A stretch of 31,599 nt of DNA from a virus: IMG/VR virus record IMGVR_UViG_3300048584_000281, positions 1 to 31,599 of that record. One strand, 5' to 3'. Shown here in pieces: positions 6,596 through 27,186 of this stretch. Both the position numbers and the translations under genes were made by a program. The first letter of the stretch is position 1; each line of letters opens with the position of its first letter. Under the pieces are notes generated by a model. That model had not been told where the DNA came from. It did not search any database and saw nothing but the letters and a program-made list of their open reading frames with translations.

Positions 6596-6931
6596 ATGCG
6601 CGGCTATATCCAGCCCGGCAACACCATCACGCTTCCCGCCCCCTATGCCGTGGCTTCCGGCGACGGCCTGTTGGTGGGCGCGATCTTCGGCATCGCGACC
6701 GGATCGGCGGCCATCAACGCCGAGGTCGAGACTCTCACAGAAGGCGTGGTCGAACTGCGCAAGGCCCCGTCCCAGGCATGGGCCGTCGGCGCGCGCATCT
6801 ACTGGGACAACGCCGCACGTCTCGCGACGACCGTGATCGCATCGAACACCCTGATCGGCGCTGCGACCGAGCCCGTGGCAGGCGGGGTTAACGATACGAT
6901 CGGTCGCGTCCGGCTCAACGGCGTGGCCTAA
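6596..6931 (+). CDS. DUF2190 capsid cement/decoration protein
   Basis: This 111-residue protein has the all-beta look of the DUF2190 family, small proteins encoded right after the major capsid gene that decorate and stabilise the shell. The typical N-terminus (YIQPGNTITLPAPYAVASGDGLLVG) and the central pattern VELRKAPSQAWAVGARIYWD are seen. The ATG follows GGAGAACTCCC, a good ribosome binding site. Its stop codon overlaps the stop of the convergent RES toxin gene by 4 bp, so no terminator separates the phage operon from that inserted module. Function is inferred from family and position. Confidence 0.85.
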   Translation: MRGYIQPGNTITLPAPYAVASGDGLLVGAIFGIATGSAAINAEVETLTEGVVELRKAPSQAWAVGARIYWDNAARLATTVIASNTLIGAATEPVAGGVNDTIGRVRLNGVA

Positions 6932-7704
6932 AGGTCGCCACGGTCCCATTTCAGGGCCGCGATCCGCGGATCGGCGGCGAAGGTTCCACGCGGAAACTCG
7001 AGACCCTGACGGGGGAACTCGCACAAGGCCTGAACACCGGATGGGCTTAGCCGAATGCGCCAAGTCTGCCGGTCGACCGGTGCGGGCCTTGCAAAGGCGC
7101 GGCACATCAGGATCGCGAGATTGGCTCGTTGATCCGGATCGCGGACCGACTGGTAACGGATCACATCAGCGTCCGCTGCTCGGGCGGCGTCGGCGAAGGC
7201 TTGGCAGGGACCAAAGTCGGTGCGATCCGTCCAGAGGCCGCTGTCTTGCGAGAGCGGTTCGCTCATCAGATCGAGCAGCCGCACGCTCGACACCGCAGCC
7301 GAGAAGGCCGTGTACTCCGCAGCGTCAGCCGGCCAAGGCGTGGCGGGCGACTCGGCGAAGAACAGCAGCCGGTAGAACGCCATCTCGGCGACAGCGGTCG
7401 CCGGGTGTTCCGCCGCGTAGTAGACTCCGAGCGTGCGCCCTGCGCGCCGAAAGCGGGACCCTGTCGGATAGATCGCGCCATAACGGAACGGCGTCGCCAA
7501 CAGGAAATCGAGATGGCGGCAGTCCGGCGGGATCGCGGGTTTCGTCTCCTCGATCAGTTCTTCGAGCAAGGACTGTTCGGCGAGCGTGTCGGTCAGCTTC
7601 AAGGTCGAGACGCGATGCTGGGCCTCGACGAGCCGCCAGCACGCGCCGTCGAAGCGACGGAACTCAGACGAGAGCGCGACGCGCGTCCAGATAGGCGATG
7701 ACAT
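6928..7704 (-). CDS. RES-domain toxin (NAD+-degrading family)
   Basis: This 258-residue protein carries the RES domain, a family whose characterised toxins deplete NAD+ by phosphorolysis and are held in check by an Xre-type antitoxin. The motif TGSRFRRAG (81-89) supplies the conserved arginine. The following GVYYAAEHPATAVAEMAF (93-110) contains the conserved Tyr and Glu107. The later RYQSVRDPDQRANLAIL carries the expected serine. The start at 7704 lies inside the upstream antitoxin gene (41-bp overlap), so the two are translationally coupled. The gene is intact and reads against the phage head operon, ending exactly at the cement protein's stop. In a prophage it could mediate addiction or abortive infection (inference). 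Confidence 0.9.
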   Translation of the reverse strand: MSSPIWTRVALSSEFRRFDGACWRLVEAQHRVSTLKLTDTLAEQSLLEELIEETKPAIPPDCRHLDFLLATPFRYGAIYPTGSRFRRAGRTLGVYYAAEHPATAVAEMAFYRLLFFAESPATPWPADAAEYTAFSAAVSSVRLLDLMSEPLSQDSGLWTDRTDFGPCQAFADAARAADADVIRYQSVRDPDQRANLAILMCRAFARPAPVDRQTWRIRLSPSGVQALCEFPRQGLEFPRGTFAADPRIAALKWDRGDL

Positions 7705-8044
7705 CGACGAGTCCGCTCACGGTTTGCACCTTCTCGATCGGCTGAGCGTCGAGAGCGGTGTTGGGATTGACGAGCCAGCTTGCCGCGACCCTGGCGTCGC
7801 CTCCTGCAATCGCGTCGAGGGAGCGGAACAGGCGCACGAAGAGGATCGCCAGCTCGAACGGCTTCGTCCCAGGCTCAAGACCGAATTCCCCGCGCTTCAT
7901 GCGCGAGACCGTCGCCTCGCTGACACCGATGACGGTGGCGAGGATCCGGGCGGTCACACCCAACTGATCCGCAGCACGAAGAACTGCCTTGGTGACGACC
8001 GGACCGGCTTCCGGGCGGGCGGCGGCGGACAGAAGGACTGTCAT
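7664..8044 (-). CDS. Xre/MbcA/ParS-type antitoxin
   Basis: This 126-residue protein is the partner of the RES toxin. I place the start at 8044 because AAAGGAG lies just upstream; an ATG at 8077 lacks such a site and falls within the operator region. Residues near 40-55 (VIGVSEATVSRMKRG) form a helix-turn-helix. The C-terminal half, with GGDARVAASWLVNPNTAL and a following P-I-E plus GLVDVIAYL, matches the toxin-binding MbcA/ParS (formerly DUF2384) domain. Such antitoxins block the RES active site and repress their own promoter. Two similar imperfect palindromes just upstream fit that role. Order is antitoxin first, toxin second, the usual arrangement. Confidence 0.9.
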   Translation of the reverse strand: MTVLLSAAARPEAGPVVTKAVLRAADQLGVTARILATVIGVSEATVSRMKRGEFGLEPGTKPFELAILFVRLFRSLDAIAGGDARVAASWLVNPNTALDAQPIEKVQTVSGLVDVIAYLDARRALV

Positions 8045-8053
8045 GGGCGTCTC

Positions 8054-8095
8054 CTTTCTAAAGAAACTATATGACATGAAACTTCCTAAGGAAAG
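8054..8095 (-). promoter_or_regulatory. Promoter and paired operators of the RES/Xre module
   Basis: Reading on the reverse strand, a -35-like TTTCCT (8089-8094) is 17 bp from a -10-like TATAGT (8066-8071). Two similar 14-mers, CTTTCTAAAGAAAC (8054-8067) and CTTCCTAAGGAAAG (8082-8095), cover the region after the -10 and the -35. Each is an imperfect palindrome, and their starts are 28 bp apart. They are good candidates for autorepression sites of the Xre antitoxin. The second also contains the AAGGAA that probably serves as ribosome binding site for the forward gene at 8104. Confidence 0.55.
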
Positions 8096-10181: not shown

Positions 10182-10616
10182 ATGCCCTCGAAACGCGAAA
10201 CCGTCCTCGGCGCGGTGAAGACGCTTGTCGCCGCCGCCCTGCCGGGCGCGGAGGTGAAGCGCAATCTCGCCAAGCCGGAGCGTATTCCTCCGGGCGGGCT
10301 GGTCGTGATCCGCGATGGCGATCCGGGTGAGCCCGACGTCACGCTCTCGCCGGTGTCCTACCTCTACACCCATCGCATTCCCGTCGAGATAGCCGCTTTC
10401 GAGAGCGCCACGCTCACGCGTGAGCAGGTGGTCGACGAGATGCTCACCGCCATCGGTGCGGCGATCATCGCCAATCGCAGGCTCGGCGGGCTTGTCGACT
10501 GGATCGAGGCGGAAGCCCCGACCTCCGAGGACATCGAGACCACGGGCAGTCAGGCCGGCCGCTTCGCCGATGTCGTGATCGTCGCGACCTATGCAACCGC
10601 CGATCCGTTGAACTGA
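10182..10616 (+). CDS. Putative tail terminator (lambda gpU position)
   Basis: This 144-residue protein has the alpha/beta layout expected of tail terminators: an N-terminal helix (RETVLGAVKTLVAAALP), strands including GGLVVIRDGD and YTHRIPVEIAAF, a long helix (REQVVDEMLTAIGAAII) and a final strand FADVVIVATYAT. Terminators cap the finished tail tube and join it to the head. Homologues in alphaproteobacterial prophages often carry misleading 'acyl-CoA transferase' labels. It follows the DUF6441 gene by 13 bases. The expected next gene, the tail tube, lies 2.5 kb downstream beyond the GTPase insertion. Confidence 0.65.
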   Translation: MPSKRETVLGAVKTLVAAALPGAEVKRNLAKPERIPPGGLVVIRDGDPGEPDVTLSPVSYLYTHRIPVEIAAFESATLTREQVVDEMLTAIGAAIIANRRLGGLVDWIEAEAPTSEDIETTGSQAGRFADVVIVATYATADPLN

Positions 10617-10658
10617 GCAACGCTAGCAAGCTTGATGGGCGGACATTCTGGCATTCGC

Positions 10659-12920
10659 TTAACTTGAAGCAATCTGCCCTCCAGCTTCTTTGATCGCCTC
10701 ACGCAGGATTTCATGCAGGCGGCTCAGGAACAGACGTGCGTCCGCAGTCATCGCGGCACTGATCCGGGGCGCGGCCACGTCATGAATCGTCTCAATCGTA
10801 TGGGCCCTGCGCATTGCTGACCCTGGCCCACTGTGATCGAATGCCTCTCGCCAGCCGGTCACTTGGTCGTCTGTCAGCCTTGTTTTCGTCAGATCGTACA
10901 GGCGCGCGAATACTGTTCTGCGGATCCGGTCGAGGGCCAACTCGCGTTCATCATCCGTGTGCGGGAGCCGCGTCCAGTCGGCAGGTCGGTCCAGCCACTT
11001 TGATGCCTCCTCCTGCAGCCGAGCGAGAAGATCGGCCACTGGTGTCAGATTGTCGTACTCGTCCGCCCAACGTGAAGCGAGGCGGCGGCTTAGGGCCTTA
11101 ATCCTCGTCCAGTGCTCCTTGGAGATACCATCGTGGTAGGAAATGCCAAGACGAGCCCGCCAAGGATCTCTGAATGCGTCGATTGCGTCGTGCATCGCGA
11201 TTTCCAAGCCTTTAAGCTCGTATATCGGGCTGCAGTCCGTCTCTTCGCTCGGTGCGCCCGACGAGCGCATCATTTCGACCAGTTTCTCGAGTTGGCGCTT
11301 GAAGCCACCAGGCAGCTTGGCGGTCGGCTTGTCCAATCCGCCAAGAAACACGGAATGACCATCGACCTGCCGTTCGACAGCACCAGCAACACCTGCACCC
11401 ACAATGTCGCGTAGGCTCGCGATGGCATTGCCGACCGAGCCCAGGACGTGGTCGCGTTTCTGGTCGAAAGAGCCAAGGTTCGCACCCTTGACCTGATCAA
11501 AGTGGGTGAAGGCAATCGCCAGCTTGTCTGCGAAGCCTGAGCTGCCAACGGCTCGAAGGAGGGCAAGCGGGGCGGCCTGCATCGGCTGCTGCGCATTATC
11601 AACAAGGAGGATCATGTCGACGCGCGAGAACTTGTTGGTCACGCGAGTGGAAACCGAGGAGACACTGCTTGCGGTGTGACCAAGGCCCTGACCGTCCAGC
11701 AGCACCAGTTTCAACTCTTCGTCCTGTTCATCAAGATCAGGGTAGAGCGGTCCTTGAACGCGGATTCCGTCGACAAGGGGCGTGAGCAGCCGACCGAACT
11801 GCTTGTGATGGTTGCTCGAGAACCAGCGAACAGCCGCAAGGAAGTCATCACGGTCGTCGCTGTTGTAGGTCCAGATGGTCGGCCACCCGGTTGCGGATCG
11901 CTCGGTGTTCCCAACCTCGATGCGGTCGAAGCGCTCGGCGACCTCGTCCATCAGGTCTAGCGCGAGCGTCGAGAAACGAGGGTTCTTGAATGCTTCGACG
12001 CCGAACAGCTCGAGCCAGGCGGCCTTGCCATCAGCCGATTTTTCGTCGCTGAGCCGACCGATCTGCGCCTCGCAGAAGGTGCCCGTCTCTTTCGCAAGGT
12101 CCTTGATGGCATTGACAAAGCCGAGCAGGCGGATGCGTTGGTTCTCGATCTCTTCCGCTGTGACTTCCTCGTCTTCGCTGATCGCCGTGTCCGGCTTTGG
12201 CTCGTCTTCGAAAGCGAAATCGTCGTCGTCGCTCTCGTGGGCTGTATTCCATCCGCCGAGAATGTACGAAAGGCGGAACCGCTGCTCCCGATGCTCGAGA
12301 AGCGCTGCGGCAATTTTCGGGTCCGACTTGCCTTGGATCGCTTCGAGGCAAGCCTCCTCGATGCATTCATCAATGTGCGCGCGTACCTCGTGCTCTGGCA
12401 TGAACGTCACCGCAGCGGAGAAGTCGCCAGGTGCAACGACGATCTCGATATCGGCAGTGGTCGTCTTGGCTGTCGATGTCGACGGAAAACGATCGGTCTC
12501 CGGATCAGAACCGATGACATGGCGAAGCAAGGTAGTCTTGCCCGCTCCTGTTGTTCCGAGAAACAAGACCGTGCTGTAGCCGTCGTCGCGGGTGGGGAGA
12601 GCAATGACGGCCGAGCGGCTCGCTTCCGCATCATGCGCTTCTGCTTCGATACCGTCGAAGAATGCGGAAACCACGATGTCGTCGAACTCGAGTGCTGCAT
12701 CCTTGCGGCGATCGCCAGACCACCAAGACTCGTTCTGCAGCAGTTCATTCAGTTGCTCGACCAGCCGGTCGGCTTCTGCATCGTCGGAGGTTCCAAGCCC
12801 CTTTCTGACCTTGAGGCCCCATTCGTTTCGGCTGTCTCGGCGAACAGGGTGCCGGAATGTCACGCTCCAGCCGGGGCGGTTCGATCTGGTCTTCGAGGCA
12901 CTGAACCTGCGATCAGTCAT
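10659..12920 (-). CDS. Large GTPase, putative phage-borne defence protein
   Basis: This 753-residue soluble protein is coded against the tail operon. Walker A/G1 is GTTGAGKT (122-129); KTTTADIEIV (152-161) looks like switch I; DGQG (409-412, in VLLDGQGLGH) fits G3; THFD (472-475) fits G4. A region of about 250 residues, with an acidic stretch (229-260), separates G1 from G3, which is unusual. Residues 17-62 (from PGWSVTF through WGLKVRKGLGTSDDAEAD) resemble the arm-type DNA-binding segment of tyrosine integrases. The C-terminus is helical with no evident membrane segment. GGAG precedes the ATG. I do not recognise the family. A dynamin-like or sensor GTPase with an anti-phage role is an inference from location and architecture. 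Confidence 0.7.
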   Translation of the reverse strand: MTDRRFSASKTRSNRPGWSVTFRHPVRRDSRNEWGLKVRKGLGTSDDAEADRLVEQLNELLQNESWWSGDRRKDAALEFDDIVVSAFFDGIEAEAHDAEASRSAVIALPTRDDGYSTVLFLGTTGAGKTTLLRHVIGSDPETDRFPSTSTAKTTTADIEIVVAPGDFSAAVTFMPEHEVRAHIDECIEEACLEAIQGKSDPKIAAALLEHREQRFRLSYILGGWNTAHESDDDDFAFEDEPKPDTAISEDEEVTAEEIENQRIRLLGFVNAIKDLAKETGTFCEAQIGRLSDEKSADGKAAWLELFGVEAFKNPRFSTLALDLMDEVAERFDRIEVGNTERSATGWPTIWTYNSDDRDDFLAAVRWFSSNHHKQFGRLLTPLVDGIRVQGPLYPDLDEQDEELKLVLLDGQGLGHTASSVSSVSTRVTNKFSRVDMILLVDNAQQPMQAAPLALLRAVGSSGFADKLAIAFTHFDQVKGANLGSFDQKRDHVLGSVGNAIASLRDIVGAGVAGAVERQVDGHSVFLGGLDKPTAKLPGGFKRQLEKLVEMMRSSGAPSEETDCSPIYELKGLEIAMHDAIDAFRDPWRARLGISYHDGISKEHWTRIKALSRRLASRWADEYDNLTPVADLLARLQEEASKWLDRPADWTRLPHTDDERELALDRIRRTVFARLYDLTKTRLTDDQVTGWREAFDHSGPGSAMRRAHTIETIHDVAAPRISAAMTADARLFLSRLHEILREAIKEAGGQIASS

Positions 12921-13004
12921 GACGTTGTTCTCCGTTGTTCCCGGGCTTTCTATAGGCCGCAGATCGTCCTGTCAATCTGAATCGGAACAACGCAGAACAA
13001 CGTC
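12921..13004 (-). promoter_or_regulatory. GTPase promoter between 21-bp inverted repeats
   Basis: Bases 12921-12941 and 12984-13004 form an inverted repeat matching at 20 of 21 positions, with 42 bp between. Each arm holds two GAACAAC/GTTGTTC heptamers 10 bp apart, giving four in all. Between the arms, on the reverse strand, are a perfect -35 TTGACA (12970-12975) and a -10-like TAGAAA (12947-12952, 17-bp spacing) or TATAGA (12949-12954, 15 bp). The inner arm runs right up to the GTPase ATG. Only one arm would be transcribed, so this is more likely a protein-binding operator pair than an RNA hairpin. Confidence 0.6.
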
Positions 13005-13172
13005 AGGCCGTAAGACATGGACGAAAATCGCGCAGTGGCGGCCACCCGTACTTGCTGCCTTGCGGCTCCCATAGCGGGCTTCGCTATCCAGCGCCCGCCT
13101 CTTCAGGCCGACGGATAGCTCGTCCACCGTTGCAGACCAGCGCCTTAGCCATCATGACGAAGGAGTATCAAT
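13005..13172 (+). other. Leader region before the tail tube gene
   Basis: No gene is supported here. A small perfect hairpin is present (ATAGCG 13071-13076, CGCTAT 13082-13087, 5-nt loop) and AAGGAG at 13160-13165 is the ribosome binding site for the tube gene. I see no convincing forward promoter, so tail genes are probably read through from upstream. Confidence 0.4.
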
Positions 13173-14420
13173 ATGCCTCGCGCTCGCGGCGTGAACGCGG
13201 CTCTCGCCGCCGTGTTCGAAAGCACCTATGGCACCCCGCCCGGCACCGGCTTTCGCCGCATGCCCTTCGCCTCGGTCAACATCGGCGAGGAACAGGGGCT
13301 GATCGCGAGCGAGCTTCTCGGGTTCGGCCGCGAGCCGCTGGCGCCGGTCTATGACGTCATCACCAATACGGGCGATCTCGTCGTTCCCGTGGATACCCGC
13401 AACATCGGCGTCTGGCTGCGCGGCCTGATGGGCGCGCCGACGACGGTCGCCGCGAACGCCGCGACCGGAACGATCACGCTGACCGCGAACCTTCTGGTCA
13501 ACGACACCGTGACGGTCGATGGCACGGTCTATACCGCCGTCGCCTCCGGCGCGACGGGCCAGCAATTCAATCTCGGCGGCACGGCGGCGCTGACCGCCAC
13601 CGCGCTTGCCGCGATCATCAATCCGAGCGCGAACGTCGCGGCCGCGGCGGTTGGTACGGTCGTCAACCTGACCGCCAAGGCGCTGGGACCGGGCGGCAAT
13701 GCGCGGACGCTGGCGACCAACGCGCCGACGCGCGCCAGCCTGTCGGGGGCGACGCTGTCGGGCGGCGCCAACAGCCACACATGGTTCTCCGGCGCGCAGG
13801 CTCTGCCCTCGATGTCGATCGAGGTCCAGCTTCCCGACGTGCCCTTCTTCGGGATGAACTACGGCGCCCGCATCAACAGCTTCCAGGTTCAGGCGCAGCG
13901 GTCCGGGCTGCTCACCGCCTCGCTCAACATCATGGCGCAAGGCGAGACCATCGCCGCGACGGCGCAGTCTGGCACTCTGTCGGAGTTCGTGCTGGAGCGC
14001 TTTGGCCAGTTCCAGGGCGAGGTCCGGCGCAATAACGTGGCGCTCGGCAACGTCATCTCGGCGGAACTCACCTATTCGAACAACCTCGAAGCGGTCGAGG
14101 TGATCCGAAGCGACGGGCGCATCGCCGATGCCGATCCGGGCATCATCGCGCTGACCGGCAACATCACGACCCGCTTCGAGGACCGCGTCCTTCTCGATCA
14201 GGCGACCAACCGCCTGCCATGCGAGCTTCAGTTCCGCTGGGCGGCAGGCGCAGCCGCATCGCTGGTCTGGACCGCGCACCGGGTCTTTCTGCCGCGTGGC
14301 GAGCGTCAGATCCAGGGGCCGGGCGGCGTGCAGGCTCCGTTCGCATTCCAGGCCGCGATCGATCCGGTGCTGAACCGCGCCGCGACCTGCGTGCTCACCA
14401 ACGACGTCGCGTCCTACTGA
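13173..14420 (+). CDS. Tail tube protein with inserted beta domain
   Basis: This 415-residue protein is the major tail tube subunit, the polymer around which the siphophage tail is built. The N-terminal segment (VFESTYGTPPGTGFRRMPF, 14-32), WLRGLMGAP (81-89), and then HTWFSGAQALPSMSIEVQL (202-220) are typical of the Phage_tube_2-like family. Between GAP and HTW lies an extra block, about residues 97-199, rich in Thr, Val and Ala (TITLTANLLVNDTVTVDGT and so on), which resembles surface beta domains added to other phage proteins. The ATG has AAGGAG 7 bases upstream. Position before the chaperone and tape-measure genes is standard. The insert probably decorates the tail surface (inference). Confidence 0.9.
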   Translation: MPRARGVNAALAAVFESTYGTPPGTGFRRMPFASVNIGEEQGLIASELLGFGREPLAPVYDVITNTGDLVVPVDTRNIGVWLRGLMGAPTTVAANAATGTITLTANLLVNDTVTVDGTVYTAVASGATGQQFNLGGTAALTATALAAIINPSANVAAAAVGTVVNLTAKALGPGGNARTLATNAPTRASLSGATLSGGANSHTWFSGAQALPSMSIEVQLPDVPFFGMNYGARINSFQVQAQRSGLLTASLNIMAQGETIAATAQSGTLSEFVLERFGQFQGEVRRNNVALGNVISAELTYSNNLEAVEVIRSDGRIADADPGIIALTGNITTRFEDRVLLDQATNRLPCELQFRWAAGAAASLVWTAHRVFLPRGERQIQGPGGVQAPFAFQAAIDPVLNRAATCVLTNDVASY

Positions 14421-19608: not shown

Positions 19609-21327
19609 ATGCCGCACGACACGCCGTTGATCGCGACGATCGCCATTGGTCTCGCTCTGGCGTTCGCGTTTGGTCTGCTGGCACAGCGCCTCCGGTTGCC
19701 GCCCATCGTTGGCTACTTGGTTGCGGGCATCGTCGTCGGTCCTTTCACGCCCGGCTTCGTGGCGGATCAGAAGTTGGCTGTCGAGCTGGCTGAGATCGGC
19801 GTCATCCTGCTGATGTTCGGCGTTGGCCTGCACTTCTCGCTGAAAGACCTGCTCTCCGTCCGGGCCATCGCCATTCCGGGCGCAATCGGTCAGATCGCGG
19901 TTGCCACGCTTTTGGGGATGGGCCTTGCGTGGTTGCTCGGCTGGAATCTTGGCGCCGGCCTCATCTTCGGGCTTGCGCTTTCCGTCGCAAGCACCGTGGT
20001 CCTCCTGCGTGCGCTTCAGGAGCGTCGGCAAGTCGAGACAGAAAAGGGGAAAATCGCCGTCGGTTGGCTCATTGTCGAAGACCTCGTCATGGTCCTGACC
20101 CTGGTGCTCGTTCCGCCGCTTGCCGGACTTCTGGGCGGAACGCAACCAGCCGACACCAGCAATCCGGGTCTAGTCGCCGCGCTCGGGGTCGGCCCGGTGT
20201 GGGCGACGCTCGCGCTCACTGCGGCCAAGGTCGCGCTCTTCGTCACGATCATGCTGGTGCTGGGGCGCAAGTTCATCCCGTGGGTGCTGCACTATGTGGC
20301 GCATACCGGCTCGCGCGAACTCTTCCGCCTCGCTGTGCTCGCAATCGCGCTTGGCGTCGCTTACGGCTCCGCGAACCTGTTTGGCGTGTCGTTCGCCCTC
20401 GGTGCGTTCTTCGCTGGCATGGTGCTGGCGGAAAGCCAGCTCAGTCATCAGGCGGCCAAGGAGACGCTACCGCTGCGCGACGCCTTTGCGGTGCTCTTCT
20501 TCGTCTCGGTCGGCATGCTGTTCAACCCGGCCGTGCTGGTGGCCCAGCCGCTGGCCGTCCTCGCCACATTCTTCATCATAGCCTTCGGCAAATCTGTGGC
20601 CGCTTACTTGATCGTGCGCGCCTTCGGCCACCCGAACGGCGTGGCGCTCACCATCTCGGCGAGCCTTGCGCAGATCGGTGAGTTCTCTTTCATCTTGATC
20701 GTGCTGGCTGTGAACCTCGCCATCGTGCCTCCAGAGGCACGCGACTTGGTCGTTGCGGGCTCGATCCTGTCGATCCTTGTCAACCCGCTGATGTTCATGG
20801 CGATCGATCGGCTATCCGCTGGCGAGACGCCGGCGCCCGGCGTCCAGCAGGAGAAGGCTGCTGCGGGGCCGTCCTCGACGTCGCCCGAAGCAGACGAGCC
20901 CGTGACAGCGCTTTCAGATCACGTTGTTCTTGTAGGACACGGTCGGGTCGGATCGGCGATCGGCTCATCGCTGCGCGCGAGAAGCATTGCGCACCTCGTT
21001 GTTGAAGAGGATCGTTCAGCTGTGGACGGCCTCGCGGCGAAAGGGGTGGAAAGCTTTGTCGGGCCATGCGGTGAACGGGCGATGCTCGACCGACTCAACC
21101 TGAAGCACGCGCGCTGCCTCGTCACGGCCATTCCAGACCCCTATGAGGCCGGGCATTTGGTCGAGGCCGCAAAGGCCGCCAATCCGAACATCCGTGTTAT
21201 CGCGCGCGCTCATACCGCTGAGGCCGTCGACTATCTCCGCAACCTGGGAGCCGATGTCGTGCTGATGGGTGAGGAGGAGTTGGCCAAGAGCATGAGCGCG
21301 GCAGTGAACTCGACAACTGGAAGCTAG
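19609..21327 (+). CDS. CPA2-family cation:proton antiporter with RCK domain
   Basis: This 572-residue inner-membrane protein resembles the KefB/YbaL type of CPA2 antiporters, which exchange K+ or Na+ for H+. About 12 hydrophobic segments fill residues 5-400; the characteristic IVGYLVAGIVVGPF (33-46) and the unwound-helix region VIALTI/LIVEDLVMV style motif (GWLIVEDLVMVL) with its Glu-Asp are present. A linker is followed by a C-terminal TrkA-N/RCK domain: VVLVGHGRVGSAIG is a Rossmann Gly-rich loop for nucleotide binding. Two Shine-Dalgarno sequences precede the ATG (AAGGAGG at 19582 and AAGGAG at 19597). A full chromosomal-type transporter within a phage tail operon is odd; it likely serves the lysogen. 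Confidence 0.88.
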   Translation: MPHDTPLIATIAIGLALAFAFGLLAQRLRLPPIVGYLVAGIVVGPFTPGFVADQKLAVELAEIGVILLMFGVGLHFSLKDLLSVRAIAIPGAIGQIAVATLLGMGLAWLLGWNLGAGLIFGLALSVASTVVLLRALQERRQVETEKGKIAVGWLIVEDLVMVLTLVLVPPLAGLLGGTQPADTSNPGLVAALGVGPVWATLALTAAKVALFVTIMLVLGRKFIPWVLHYVAHTGSRELFRLAVLAIALGVAYGSANLFGVSFALGAFFAGMVLAESQLSHQAAKETLPLRDAFAVLFFVSVGMLFNPAVLVAQPLAVLATFFIIAFGKSVAAYLIVRAFGHPNGVALTISASLAQIGEFSFILIVLAVNLAIVPPEARDLVVAGSILSILVNPLMFMAIDRLSAGETPAPGVQQEKAAAGPSSTSPEADEPVTALSDHVVLVGHGRVGSAIGSSLRARSIAHLVVEEDRSAVDGLAAKGVESFVGPCGERAMLDRLNLKHARCLVTAIPDPYEAGHLVEAAKAANPNIRVIARAHTAEAVDYLRNLGADVVLMGEEELAKSMSAAVNSTTGS

Positions 21328-23367: not shown

Positions 23368-26300
23368 ATGGCGCAACTCGTCCTGACCGTTGCCGGCGCA
23401 TGGGCGGGCAACGCCATCGGCGGCGGGCTCGGCCAGGCGGCGGGCGCAATGCTCGGCTCGTATCTGGGGGCCGCCATCGAACAGGATTTGTTCGGTCCCG
23501 GCCCGTCTGCCGTCACGCGAAGCGAGGGCGCGGGCGTCACCGATCTGCAGGTCTCCGGTTCGGCCTATGGTCAGCCGATCCCAAGCGTCTGGGGACGTGG
23601 GCGGATCGCCGCCAACATCATCTGGGTGCGCGGCATCAAGGAGACCGCGATCACCGAGACGGAAACCACTGGCGGCGGCGGCAAGGGTGGTGGCGGCGGC
23701 GGTGGTCGCCAGACCACGGTGCGCACGCGCTACGAATACTCGGCCGACATCCTGCTCGGCGTCTGCGAGGGCCCGGTCACGGCGATCTACCGGATCTGGG
23801 TCAACAACACGATGCTGGACCCCGAGCATGTCGGCGCAATCCGGGTCGGTTATGGCGAGGACAGTCAGCAGGCCGATCCGCTGGTGGCGGCGGTCGAAGG
23901 CGCAGGCCGGACACCAGCCCATCGCGGCCTCGTCACGGTCATGCTGGAGGACTTCAAGCTCACCCCATTCGGGAACCGCTTTCCGAACTTCGAGGTCGAG
24001 GTCTATCGGGGCTCGGACGATCCGAACAATGCGCGCCACCTCGTCGAGGGGATCTGCCTGATCCCGGCCTCGGGCGAGTTCGTCGCCGACACCGAGATCG
24101 TGCGCAAGGTCGGTCACGGCTCGGCGACATCGCAAGCGGCGATCAACGCTAACACCGGCACGAAGCGCTCGGACTTTCTCGTCTCGATCGACAACCTCGC
24201 GCGCGAACTGCCGAACGTCGAATGGATCAACTTCGTCTACGCCTGGTTCGGCACATCGATCGATGTTGCGACCTGCGATCTCGTGCCCAAATGCGAGTAC
24301 GCGCAAGGTCAGTCGGGTGCGTTCGGGGCTGAGACCGCGCCGCATCTCTGGTCAGTCGCGGGCGGCGGGCGCTCGGTCTGGCCGGTCGTCACCTCCTACA
24401 CGCTCCCGAACGGGCAGTCCGCCCTGTCCTATGGCGGCACGATCAGTGACGGCTCGGTCATCCGGGCGGTTCAGGAACTGAAAGCGCGGGGCTACAAGGT
24501 TCTGTTCTACCCCTTCATCATGATGGACATTCCGCCGCCCGATCCGGCGCCATTCCCCTGGCGCGGCAGGATCACGGGCGCTGCGGCCGATGTCGCCGGG
24601 TTCTTCACGCGACCGGTGGGGTATCTGCGCTTCATCCGCCACTGCATGAGTTTGTGCGTGCAGGCGGGCGGGGTCGACGCCTTCGCCGTCGGCTCGGAGA
24701 TGGTGGGGCTCAACCGCATCCGGGATGCGGGCGGCGCCTATCCCGCCGTGCCGTTCTGGCGGCAGATCGCGGCTGAGGCGAAGACGCGGCTCGGCGCGAC
24801 CTGCACCGTGACCTACGCCGCCGACTGGTCGGAATACCGCTATCATGATCGCGGCGGCGCCAACGTCGACTTCCCGCTCGACGCCCTCTGGGCCGACAGC
24901 AACATCGATGCGGTCGGCATCGACGCCTACTTCCCCGTCACCGACACCGATCGTTCGCTGACCGACCCGGCGACGATCGGCACGGGCTGGGGTTCCGGCG
25001 AACTGATCAGCTATTTCTATGCGAGCGAGGCGGACCGGGATCTGCCCGGGCGCGGCGCCAACCGCGTCCAGTCGCCAATCAGCGAGCCGTTCTGGGCGCT
25101 CAAGGACCTGCGCTGGTGGTGGGAGAACAGCCACACGCCGCGCGTGGCAGGCGTGCCGACGGGACCGGCGAGCCCCTGGACGCCGAAGATGAAGCCGATC
25201 TGGCTCACCGAATACGGCTTCCCGTCGGTGCATTGCTCGCCAAACCGCCCGAACGTCTTCGTCGACCCGAAGTCGGCGGAGAGCTTCTACCCCTGGTATT
25301 CGAACCGATCCGTGGACCGCGTGGTCCAGCGCGTCGCAATCAAGGGCACCGAGGATTGGTGGCGGGAGCCTACGAACAATCCGCTCGACGGCCAGGGGCG
25401 GCGGATGATCGGTCCGCGCTTCCTCTGGTGCTGGGACGCACGGCCATACCCCTTCTTCCCGTCGCTGCAACGGGTCTGGCAGGACGGCGACAATTACCGC
25501 CTCGGCCATTGGGTTCAGGGAAAGATCGGCAACATGCAGCTCTCCGAGATCGTGCGCGACCTGTGTCTTCGTGCGGGGCTTGTCGCATCCGAATTCGATG
25601 TCACGAGCCTCACTGACGAGGTCTCGGGCTATGTCGTCAGCGAGCGCAAGTCGCTGCGCGAGATGATCGCCGTGTTGCAGACCGCGTTCTTCTTCGACGC
25701 GGTGGAGAGCGGCGGCGTGTTGCGCTTCGTCAAGCGTGGCGGCGGAACCATCGTCGCCGTCGACGCCAATGATCTTGGCGCGGCGGAAGGCGACGGCGAC
25801 CGGGCGCGCATCCGGATCGAGCGCGCGCAGGATGTCGAATTGCCGATCTCGATCGATGTCGTGCATCTCGATGAGGCCCGCGACTACCAGAGTTCGACCG
25901 TCACGGGTCGCCGGCAGCTCGGCACCTCGCGCAGCGTGACCACCTTCTCGCTGCCGCTGATCCTCTCGGTCGAGGAAGCCCAGACCATCGCCCAGCGTGC
26001 GCTCCGGGAGATCTGGCAGGGCCGCGTCACGTTAGAGGCCAAGCTGCCGACCCGCGCAATCCGCATCGATCCGACGGATGTGATCGAAGTGCCCGTCGAT
26101 GGCGCGATCCGCCGCTTCCGGGTGACGTCCGTGACCTATGGCAAGCCGGGGCTCGTGCTGGTGCGCGGCGTTGCGACCGATGGCGACCTGCCGCAGTTCG
26201 TCACCGTTCCGACCGGATCGGGCGACCTGCAGCCGAACGTGCCGGACACCGCCTCGCCGACGCGCGTCGAACTGATGGACCTGCCGTTGCTGACAGAAGC

Positions 26301-27186
26301 CGACGCGGGTGAAGCGACCTCGTTCTACATGGCCGCCTGCTCGCTCGGCGGCGCACCGTTCCGGGGCGTCTCGCTGTTCCGGCCGACAACGGACGGGCTC
26401 GACTACACCGTCTCCGGCGTCGCCGACGTCGCCTCGGTGATCGGCGACACGGTGACCGCGCTGGCGCCGGGACCGGCGCACGTCTGGGACAATGGCAATT
26501 CGGTCGAGGTGCAACTCGCCTTCGGCTCGCTCGAAAGCCTGCCCGATACGCGGATCCTCGATGGCGCCAACGGCGCGCTGATCAATGGCGAGATCATCCA
26601 GTTCGCCAACGCGGTGCTGATCGGGCCTGGACGCTACCGGCTCTCGCGGCTTCTGCGCGGGCGGCTCGGGACCGAGCACCGGATTGCGAGCCACGCCATC
26701 GGCTCGCGCTTCGTGCTGCTCGATCCCGGGCGGCTTGAACGCCCGACCTTCTCGGCCTCCAGCATCGGCCTCGCCATCGCCTGGCGCTTTGCGCCCGTGC
26801 CGCAAGGGCCGACTGGTGACCAGTCCGGACAGATCAGCTTCGCGAATGGCGGCGAGGCCCTGAAGCCATGGTCACCTGCGCATGTGCGGGGCGCGCGCAA
26901 TGGCGCGGGCGATCTCACGATCAGCTGGGTCCGCCGCACCCGCTACGGCGGGTGGTGGCGCGATCTGACAGACGTTCCGCTGAACGAAGAGACCGAGCGC
27001 TACGAGGTCGACGTGATGAACGGCTCGACGGTGCTCCGCACGCTTGCCGTGTCCGCACCTGCCGCGATCTACACCGCCGCCCAGCAGGTCGCAGATTTCG
27101 GATCGGCGCAGGCGAGCGTCACCGTTCGCGTCGTGCAGCTCTCGACCGCGATCGGGCGCGGCACGCCGGCCCTGGCGACGCTCTGA
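23368..27186 (+). CDS. Baseplate multidomain tip protein ('megatron', GTA gp15-like)
   Basis: This 1272-residue protein is the central tail-tip/host-recognition protein. An N-terminal docking domain with a Gly-rich loop (102-113) covers residues 1-215. A GTA-type TIM-barrel-like domain follows from about 280 to 640, including LKARGYKVLFYPFIMMDIPPP and IWLTEYGFPSVHC. Next comes a phage tail hub region (SEIVRDLCLRAGLVASEFDV, SERKSLREMIAVLQ), then a C-terminal Rcc01698-like part with LLRGRLGTEH and several beta domains. Length and order match GTA gp15 relatives, in the place of lambda gpJ. No truncation is visible. Confidence 0.94.
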   Translation: MAQLVLTVAGAWAGNAIGGGLGQAAGAMLGSYLGAAIEQDLFGPGPSAVTRSEGAGVTDLQVSGSAYGQPIPSVWGRGRIAANIIWVRGIKETAITETETTGGGGKGGGGGGGRQTTVRTRYEYSADILLGVCEGPVTAIYRIWVNNTMLDPEHVGAIRVGYGEDSQQADPLVAAVEGAGRTPAHRGLVTVMLEDFKLTPFGNRFPNFEVEVYRGSDDPNNARHLVEGICLIPASGEFVADTEIVRKVGHGSATSQAAINANTGTKRSDFLVSIDNLARELPNVEWINFVYAWFGTSIDVATCDLVPKCEYAQGQSGAFGAETAPHLWSVAGGGRSVWPVVTSYTLPNGQSALSYGGTISDGSVIRAVQELKARGYKVLFYPFIMMDIPPPDPAPFPWRGRITGAAADVAGFFTRPVGYLRFIRHCMSLCVQAGGVDAFAVGSEMVGLNRIRDAGGAYPAVPFWRQIAAEAKTRLGATCTVTYAADWSEYRYHDRGGANVDFPLDALWADSNIDAVGIDAYFPVTDTDRSLTDPATIGTGWGSGELISYFYASEADRDLPGRGANRVQSPISEPFWALKDLRWWWENSHTPRVAGVPTGPASPWTPKMKPIWLTEYGFPSVHCSPNRPNVFVDPKSAESFYPWYSNRSVDRVVQRVAIKGTEDWWREPTNNPLDGQGRRMIGPRFLWCWDARPYPFFPSLQRVWQDGDNYRLGHWVQGKIGNMQLSEIVRDLCLRAGLVASEFDVTSLTDEVSGYVVSERKSLREMIAVLQTAFFFDAVESGGVLRFVKRGGGTIVAVDANDLGAAEGDGDRARIRIERAQDVELPISIDVVHLDEARDYQSSTVTGRRQLGTSRSVTTFSLPLILSVEEAQTIAQRALREIWQGRVTLEAKLPTRAIRIDPTDVIEVPVDGAIRRFRVTSVTYGKPGLVLVRGVATDGDLPQFVTVPTGSGDLQPNVPDTASPTRVELMDLPLLTEADAGEATSFYMAACSLGGAPFRGVSLFRPTTDGLDYTVSGVADVASVIGDTVTALAPGPAHVWDNGNSVEVQLAFGSLESLPDTRILDGANGALINGEIIQFANAVLIGPGRYRLSRLLRGRLGTEHRIASHAIGSRFVLLDPGRLERPTFSASSIGLAIAWRFAPVPQGPTGDQSGQISFANGGEALKPWSPAHVRGARNGAGDLTISWVRRTRYGGWWRDLTDVPLNEETERYEVDVMNGSTVLRTLAVSAPAAIYTAAQQVADFGSAQASVTVRVVQLSTAIGRGTPALATL

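Follow-up and report, generated by a model that had tools for sequence, protein, structure and literature searches.

A predicted dynamin-like GTPase with an integrase-arm-type N-terminal domain and a conserved upstream operator, carried as optional cargo in a phage tail module

The gene described here is best read as encoding a mobile, stand-alone, self-repressed bacterial dynamin-like GTPase, probably an anti-phage effector, and we hold this reading as a whole with moderate confidence. Its fold, its N-terminal fusion and its operator are well supported computationally, by the fold of the G domain, by the homology of the N-terminus, and by an operator that is tied to the gene and absent where the N-terminal domain is absent. 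Mobility and an enrichment of defence genes in the neighbourhood lend further support. The gene lies in the IMG/VR virus record IMGVR_UViG_3300048584_000281, of which positions 1 to 31,599 were analysed (31,599 nt, hereafter the window). The window codes for terminase, portal, head protease and tail genes. Features of the gene and its surroundings are listed in Table 1.

Table 1 Features of the GTPase gene, its upstream region and its insertion site, in window coordinates.
Feature	Position	Strand	Basis or remark
Dynamin-like GTPase gene	10659..12920	-	753 aa; ATG start; no internal stops
N-terminal integrase-arm-type (DUF6538-like) domain, residues 1-66	12723..12920	-	AlphaFold, DUF6538, hhalign
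G1/P-loop GTTGAGKT, residues 122-129	12534..12557	-	kept in homologues
STSTAKTT, residues 147-154, G2/switch I candidate	12459..12482	-	kept in homologues
Helical insert within GTPase domain, about residues 176-368	11817..12395	-	AlphaFold model
G3 DGQG, residues 409-412	11685..11696	-	kept in homologues
G4-like THFD, residues 472-475	11496..11507	-	kept in homologues
C-terminal helical part, about residues 565-745	10686..11228	-	AlphaFold model
Operator, promoter-proximal pair GAACAAC-N3-GAACAAC (coding strand)	12924..12940	-	-20/-10 from ATG
-10-like TAGAAA, 17-nt spacer	12947..12952	-	weak match, by eye
-35 box TTGACA, between operator pairs	12970..12975	-	upstream sequence
Operator, distal pair GTTGTTC-N3-GTTGTTC (coding strand)	12985..13001	-	-81/-71 from ATG
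Optional insert; near-identical phages have an empty site here	10623..13172		phage comparison

GTPase motifs and dynamin-like fold

The G1, G3 and G4-like motifs named in the initial annotation are present in the open reading frame and, together with STSTAKTT, varied little or not at all among 64 homologues. Since homologues at 38-90% identity keep them, they are beyond chance. The G4-like THFD is a variant, with H replacing K. The spacing reported for G1 and G3 was also borne out: they stand ~280 residues apart, and the helical insert modelled between them contains an acidic, disordered, low-confidence stretch (residues 227-244).

Structure prediction for the whole protein, followed by structure search, had been proposed as a check, and both were run. 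The AlphaFold model (64 sequences) had a pLDDT of 86.6 and a pTM of 0.85. Its top Foldseek matches were SynDLP (E 5e-7), IniA (E 3e-5) and the Campylobacter dynamin pair (E 4e-4), and VIA-align returned Z scores of 14.5 for 5owv (250 residues), 14.2 for mitofusin 1 and 12.9 for BDLP (376 residues). C-terminal helices, examined as a stalk/paddle feature, were present in the model. Judged from this model, the protein very likely has a dynamin-like fold and groups with bacterial dynamin-like proteins and mitofusins. Among viral predicted structures the nearest were giant-virus dynamins, with weak matches. A housekeeping translation GTPase was rejected, as the EF-Tu match (Z 11.7 across 167 residues) was weaker and shorter than the dynamin-like ones.

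At the sequence level, 55 of the 64 members matched the Dynamin_N profile at E ≤ 1 (best 5.8e-5), with no such match among the hits of the window protein itself. Matches to Pfam, PHROGs, NCBIfam and PADLOC were confined to P-loop fragments, and the family is unnamed in these libraries; in PADLOC-DB 2.0, no model was matched outside the P-loop.

The superfamily fold would also suit a classical membrane-protecting dynamin whose DNA-binding domain merely regulates expression. The model for such a protein is DynA of Bacillus subtilis, a bacterial dynamin that clusters at the membrane and delays phage-induced lysis (PMC8844932). Dynamins are counted as a defence class by DefenseFinder (PMC11811056, PMC12595487); those predicted in PMC12595487 were inactive against the phages used there. 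However, no transmembrane helix or strongly hydrophobic stretch was predicted in the 753 residues (KD19 maximum 1.17), which leaves action at a membrane uncertain, and the sequence match to the PADLOC LeoBC model is limited to the P-loop. We regard this explanation as possible and do not favour it.

Distribution, phage cargo and defence neighbourhood

More than 130 relatives were found, in at least a dozen phyla. They are single genes, located on chromosomes, plasmids or phages. Profile scans detected 132 relatives on genome contigs, of which 80 were fetched for analysis, and 14 viral contigs; tblastn detected relatives on 11 plasmids and none in 50,697 phage records. The host phyla (Pseudomonadota, Chloroflexota, Acidobacteriota, Bacillota, Actinomycetota, Planctomycetota, Verrucomicrobiota, Nitrospirota, Cyanobacteriota and others) were intermixed on the GTPase tree, where single host placements may be wrong because several hosts are metagenome bins. 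One copy per genome was the rule; the genome of locus L057 (G014) has a second copy, 40% identical, elsewhere on the chromosome.

No constant partner gene was found across the loci, and a conserved two-gene system was rejected for lack of a recurrent partner. Type I restriction-modification (RM) genes were the only widely recurrent neighbours, at varying distances. Two of the Rhodococcus copies that lack the N-terminal domain (L018 8545-9947, L019 8522-9923) are accompanied by two or three small uncharacterised genes in what seems to be an operon.

As first annotated, the orientation of the gene in the window is opposite to that of the tail genes; its neighbours are those for the tail terminator (10182-10616, plus strand) and the tail tube (13173-14420, plus strand). 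It is absent from phages with a nearly identical tail tube. Both flanking genes were present on 40 phage contigs: 37 had only a gap of 28-139 bp between them, two carried the GTPase gene and one a T5orf172-like gene. In another phage clade the GTPase gene lies one gene away, between connector and tail terminator, and in a third phage type near a capsid gene. In this third setting, on contig IMGVR_UViG_2667527406_000008 (L205), a homologue with the full operator adjoins the capsid gene, which is Mu-like (assigned by eye).

The other defence-type cargo noted initially is represented in the window by a RES-domain toxin (6928-7704, minus strand) and an Xre-type antitoxin (7664-8077, minus strand), a pair inserted against the head genes. 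The tail module also holds a Na+/H+ antiporter with a TrkA-N domain (19609-21327, plus strand), and a tail protein with gene-transfer-agent TIM-barrel and Rcc01698 domains is encoded at 23368-27186 (plus strand). Seven related phages (L200, L175, L188, L186, L198, L187, L164) carry varied small cargo at the same sites, between the connector, tail terminator, tail tube and tape measure genes. The cargo was T5orf172-like or, by eye, PIN/VapBC-, Phd/RelE-, acetyltransferase-, NUDIX- and LysE-like.

An optional, opposite-strand insert in a tail-gene module would be expected of a moron that benefits the phage in another way, through superinfection exclusion or lysogen fitness, without being a general defence gene; the tail modules of relatives likewise take up toxin-antitoxin, transporter and enzyme cargo. 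We consider this rather unlikely, as most relatives of the GTPase reside on chromosomes or plasmids, often with defence genes nearby.

The survey of homologue neighbourhoods that the initial annotation had suggested found defence genes within 10 kb of the GTPase at 14 of 49 independent loci and in none of the 60 control regions (Fisher p 4e-6); counting HsdM/HsdR only, the figures were 8/49 and 0/60 (p 0.0012). The reference set was small, consisting of proteins from annotated plasmid neighbours of the GTPase, and 35 of the 49 loci had no match to it. Controls were random 20-kb chromosomal regions of the same genomes. Because they were chosen irrespective of gene content, the enrichment could reflect a shared preference for mobile islands. 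PADLOC identified type I methylases, DISARM DrmD, Septu-type ATPases and AbiEi among the neighbours, none of them among the families shown for the control. Plasmid copies adjoin BREX and AbiE genes or a type I RM system.

The proposal of an undescribed single-gene defence system is partly supported, by several observations: absence from the libraries, no constant partner, an arm-type N-terminus, defence-gene enrichment and optional carriage by phages. The defence role itself is probable on this context.

The N-terminal domain and its putative operator

Residues 17-62 had been likened to the arm-binding segment of tyrosine integrases, and profile comparison upheld the likeness. By hhalign, the N-terminus of the GTPase matched the profile of integrase N-termini with a probability of 83%, E 8.4e-6 and a score of 32; the highest score among 150 column shuffles was 12.9, the reversed profile scored 11.2, and protein slices outside the N-terminus reached no more than 13.2. 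As the score is far above the shuffled and reversed controls, the resemblance is real, as remote homology: on profile evidence, it joins residues 18-60 to DUF6538, the domain at the N-terminus of tyrosine integrases. Pfam DUF6538 itself gave weak matches, under the curated cut-off, in 15 of 62 family members, and DUF6538 proteins from the relatives' own genomes bear a Phage_integrase domain.

The structure check of residues 1-66 alone gave a divided answer. AlphaFold modelled them as strand-strand-strand-helix, but no convincing PDB match was found: the best fold-search hit had E 0.36, with integrase arm structures absent among the matches listed (which does not count against such a fold), VIA-align peaked at Z 5.5 with enolase N-domains, and a PDB sequence search with the N-terminus returned no match. 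Scanning viral contigs with the N-terminal profile recovered only members of the dynamin-like GTPase family; a scan with one integrase recovered no relatives.

Of 68 non-redundant homologues possessing the N-terminal domain, 61 were found by weight matrix to carry four half-sites GTTGT[T/A]CC, two direct and two inverted, upstream of the gene. Each of the 61 arrays scored higher than the best of 1,360 shuffled sequences, in a test that is self-flattering in that the matrix was trained and scored on one set. An untrained search with at most one mismatch agrees with the matrix result: the full four-site array occurred in 38 of 69 groups, in 0/752 control upstream regions and in 0/5,050 shuffles. 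Across 20 whole genomes, the exact 11-bp-spaced repeat was almost confined to the GTPase gene; as we read the coordinates, about two of its 24 places lie elsewhere. In Azospirillum (L017), where the GTPase gene is second in a two-gene operon, the array precedes the first gene.

The claim that the gene has its own promoter fared unevenly. A simple sigma-70 scan upstream yielded no match over threshold, but a TTGACA box lies within the conserved operator, and a TTGAC-like box sits between the operator pairs in 54 of the 61 homologues.

The two pairs shared a half-site spacing of 10 bp in 43 homologues and of 11 bp in 16. A one-residue hairpin insert accompanies the 11-bp spacing (15/16 against 1/43), but on the tree this link comes down to one or two events and is phylogenetically non-independent. 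The array in its standard form was missing from 7 of the 68 homologues, several of which have variant TGTTCC repeats. At L048, L063, L075, L093 and L095, variant repeats (TGTTCC or ATTGTTCC) occupy the same place upstream, possibly reflecting a shifted operator specificity.

Six homologues lack the N-terminal domain, namely five Rhodococcus plasmid copies and one SAR202 bin, and none of them has the four-site array upstream. They form two separate lineages on the tree, the only two independent absences known. Because domain and array are absent together in both, the array appears tied to the N-terminal domain, which argues for autoregulation. We consider it quite likely that the N-terminal domain binds DNA and autoregulates the GTPase gene; that it is the GTPase N-terminus that binds this operator is what we infer from the sequences.

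An NTPase that has a DNA-binding-type domain, and whose promoter bears the genome's one repeat array, is comparable in layout to plasmid partition cassettes, and the gene does occur on plasmids and phages. It might belong to a maintenance or segregation-like system, with the array as an anchor and DNA being moved or clustered by the dynamin part. This is improbable, however: the single gene is also found on chromosomes and in phage tail modules, where partition is unneeded, it has no adaptor gene, and its neighbours include defence genes. Least probable is that a host regulator reads the operator while the N-terminus serves otherwise, for instance in dimerisation or phage-DNA binding; half-site and N-terminal changes show no covariation once ancestry is allowed for, but at least a dozen phyla retain the array, which the genomes checked show at hardly any other place, and it disappears jointly with the N-terminus in two lineages.

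Proposed mechanism and comparison with known systems

For the self-repressed anti-phage GTPase that we favour, we infer DNA binding, repression, a trigger, an effector step and protection as follows. The integrase-arm-type domain would bind the tandem GTTGTTCC half-sites flanking the promoter and, when bound, repress the gene to a low level of expression. The two inverted pairs would be kept together by self-association of the protein, through its dynamin-type GTPase and helical parts. During infection, GTP-driven assembly or a phage trigger would draw the protein off the operator, and this release would both raise expression and free the dynamin part to act. The dynamin part might then assemble in a GTP-dependent manner on membrane or DNA, so that infection fails or lysis is delayed.

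More tentatively, and with a low probability in our estimate, the working surface of the GTPase could be DNA throughout: its own operator, to which it would be tethered at rest, and phage or replicon DNA during infection. GTP-driven assembly would then sequester or disable the bound DNA, and operator release would be both sensor and switch.

Bacterial dynamins are known as membrane proteins, a few of them counted as anti-phage. A widespread subfamily with a fused integrase-type DNA-binding domain, and with a single operator preserved in at least a dozen phyla, would connect a membrane-type machine with DNA recognition and self-control. The operator is also a marker sequence for finding further members of the family. 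Our literature search found no paper describing a fusion of a dynamin and an integrase-type domain, or such an operator.

Bacterial dynamin-like proteins and mitofusins (Nostoc BDLP, Campylobacter DLP1/2, SynDLP, IniA, MFN1/2, Fzo1) have the GTPase-domain fold and flanking helices in common with the window GTPase. The latter differs in that its GTPase domain contains a helical insert of ~190 residues, that it begins with an integrase-type domain and has a conserved putative self-operator, and that no transmembrane segment is predicted. The N-terminal domain of tyrosine integrases (Pfam DUF6538, PF20172) aligns with residues 18-60, with a matching strand-strand-strand-helix order; unlike those enzymes, the window GTPase has no recombinase catalytic domain, and its N-terminus would target its own promoter, not an attachment site. 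Among defence systems, Eleos/LeoBC also has a dynamin-type GTPase and is counted as defence (PMC11811056), and LeoA is a bacterial dynamin (PMC4159319). The LeoBC model matched the window GTPase only at the P-loop (E 0.018), and whereas Eleos/LeoBC comprises two genes, the window GTPase is one gene without a constant partner. DynA, the bacterial dynamin with a reported anti-phage effect, is likened to it at the level of the superfamily fold; in contrast to the membrane-clustering DynA, the window GTPase belongs to a mobile family with its own DNA-binding-type domain and operator.
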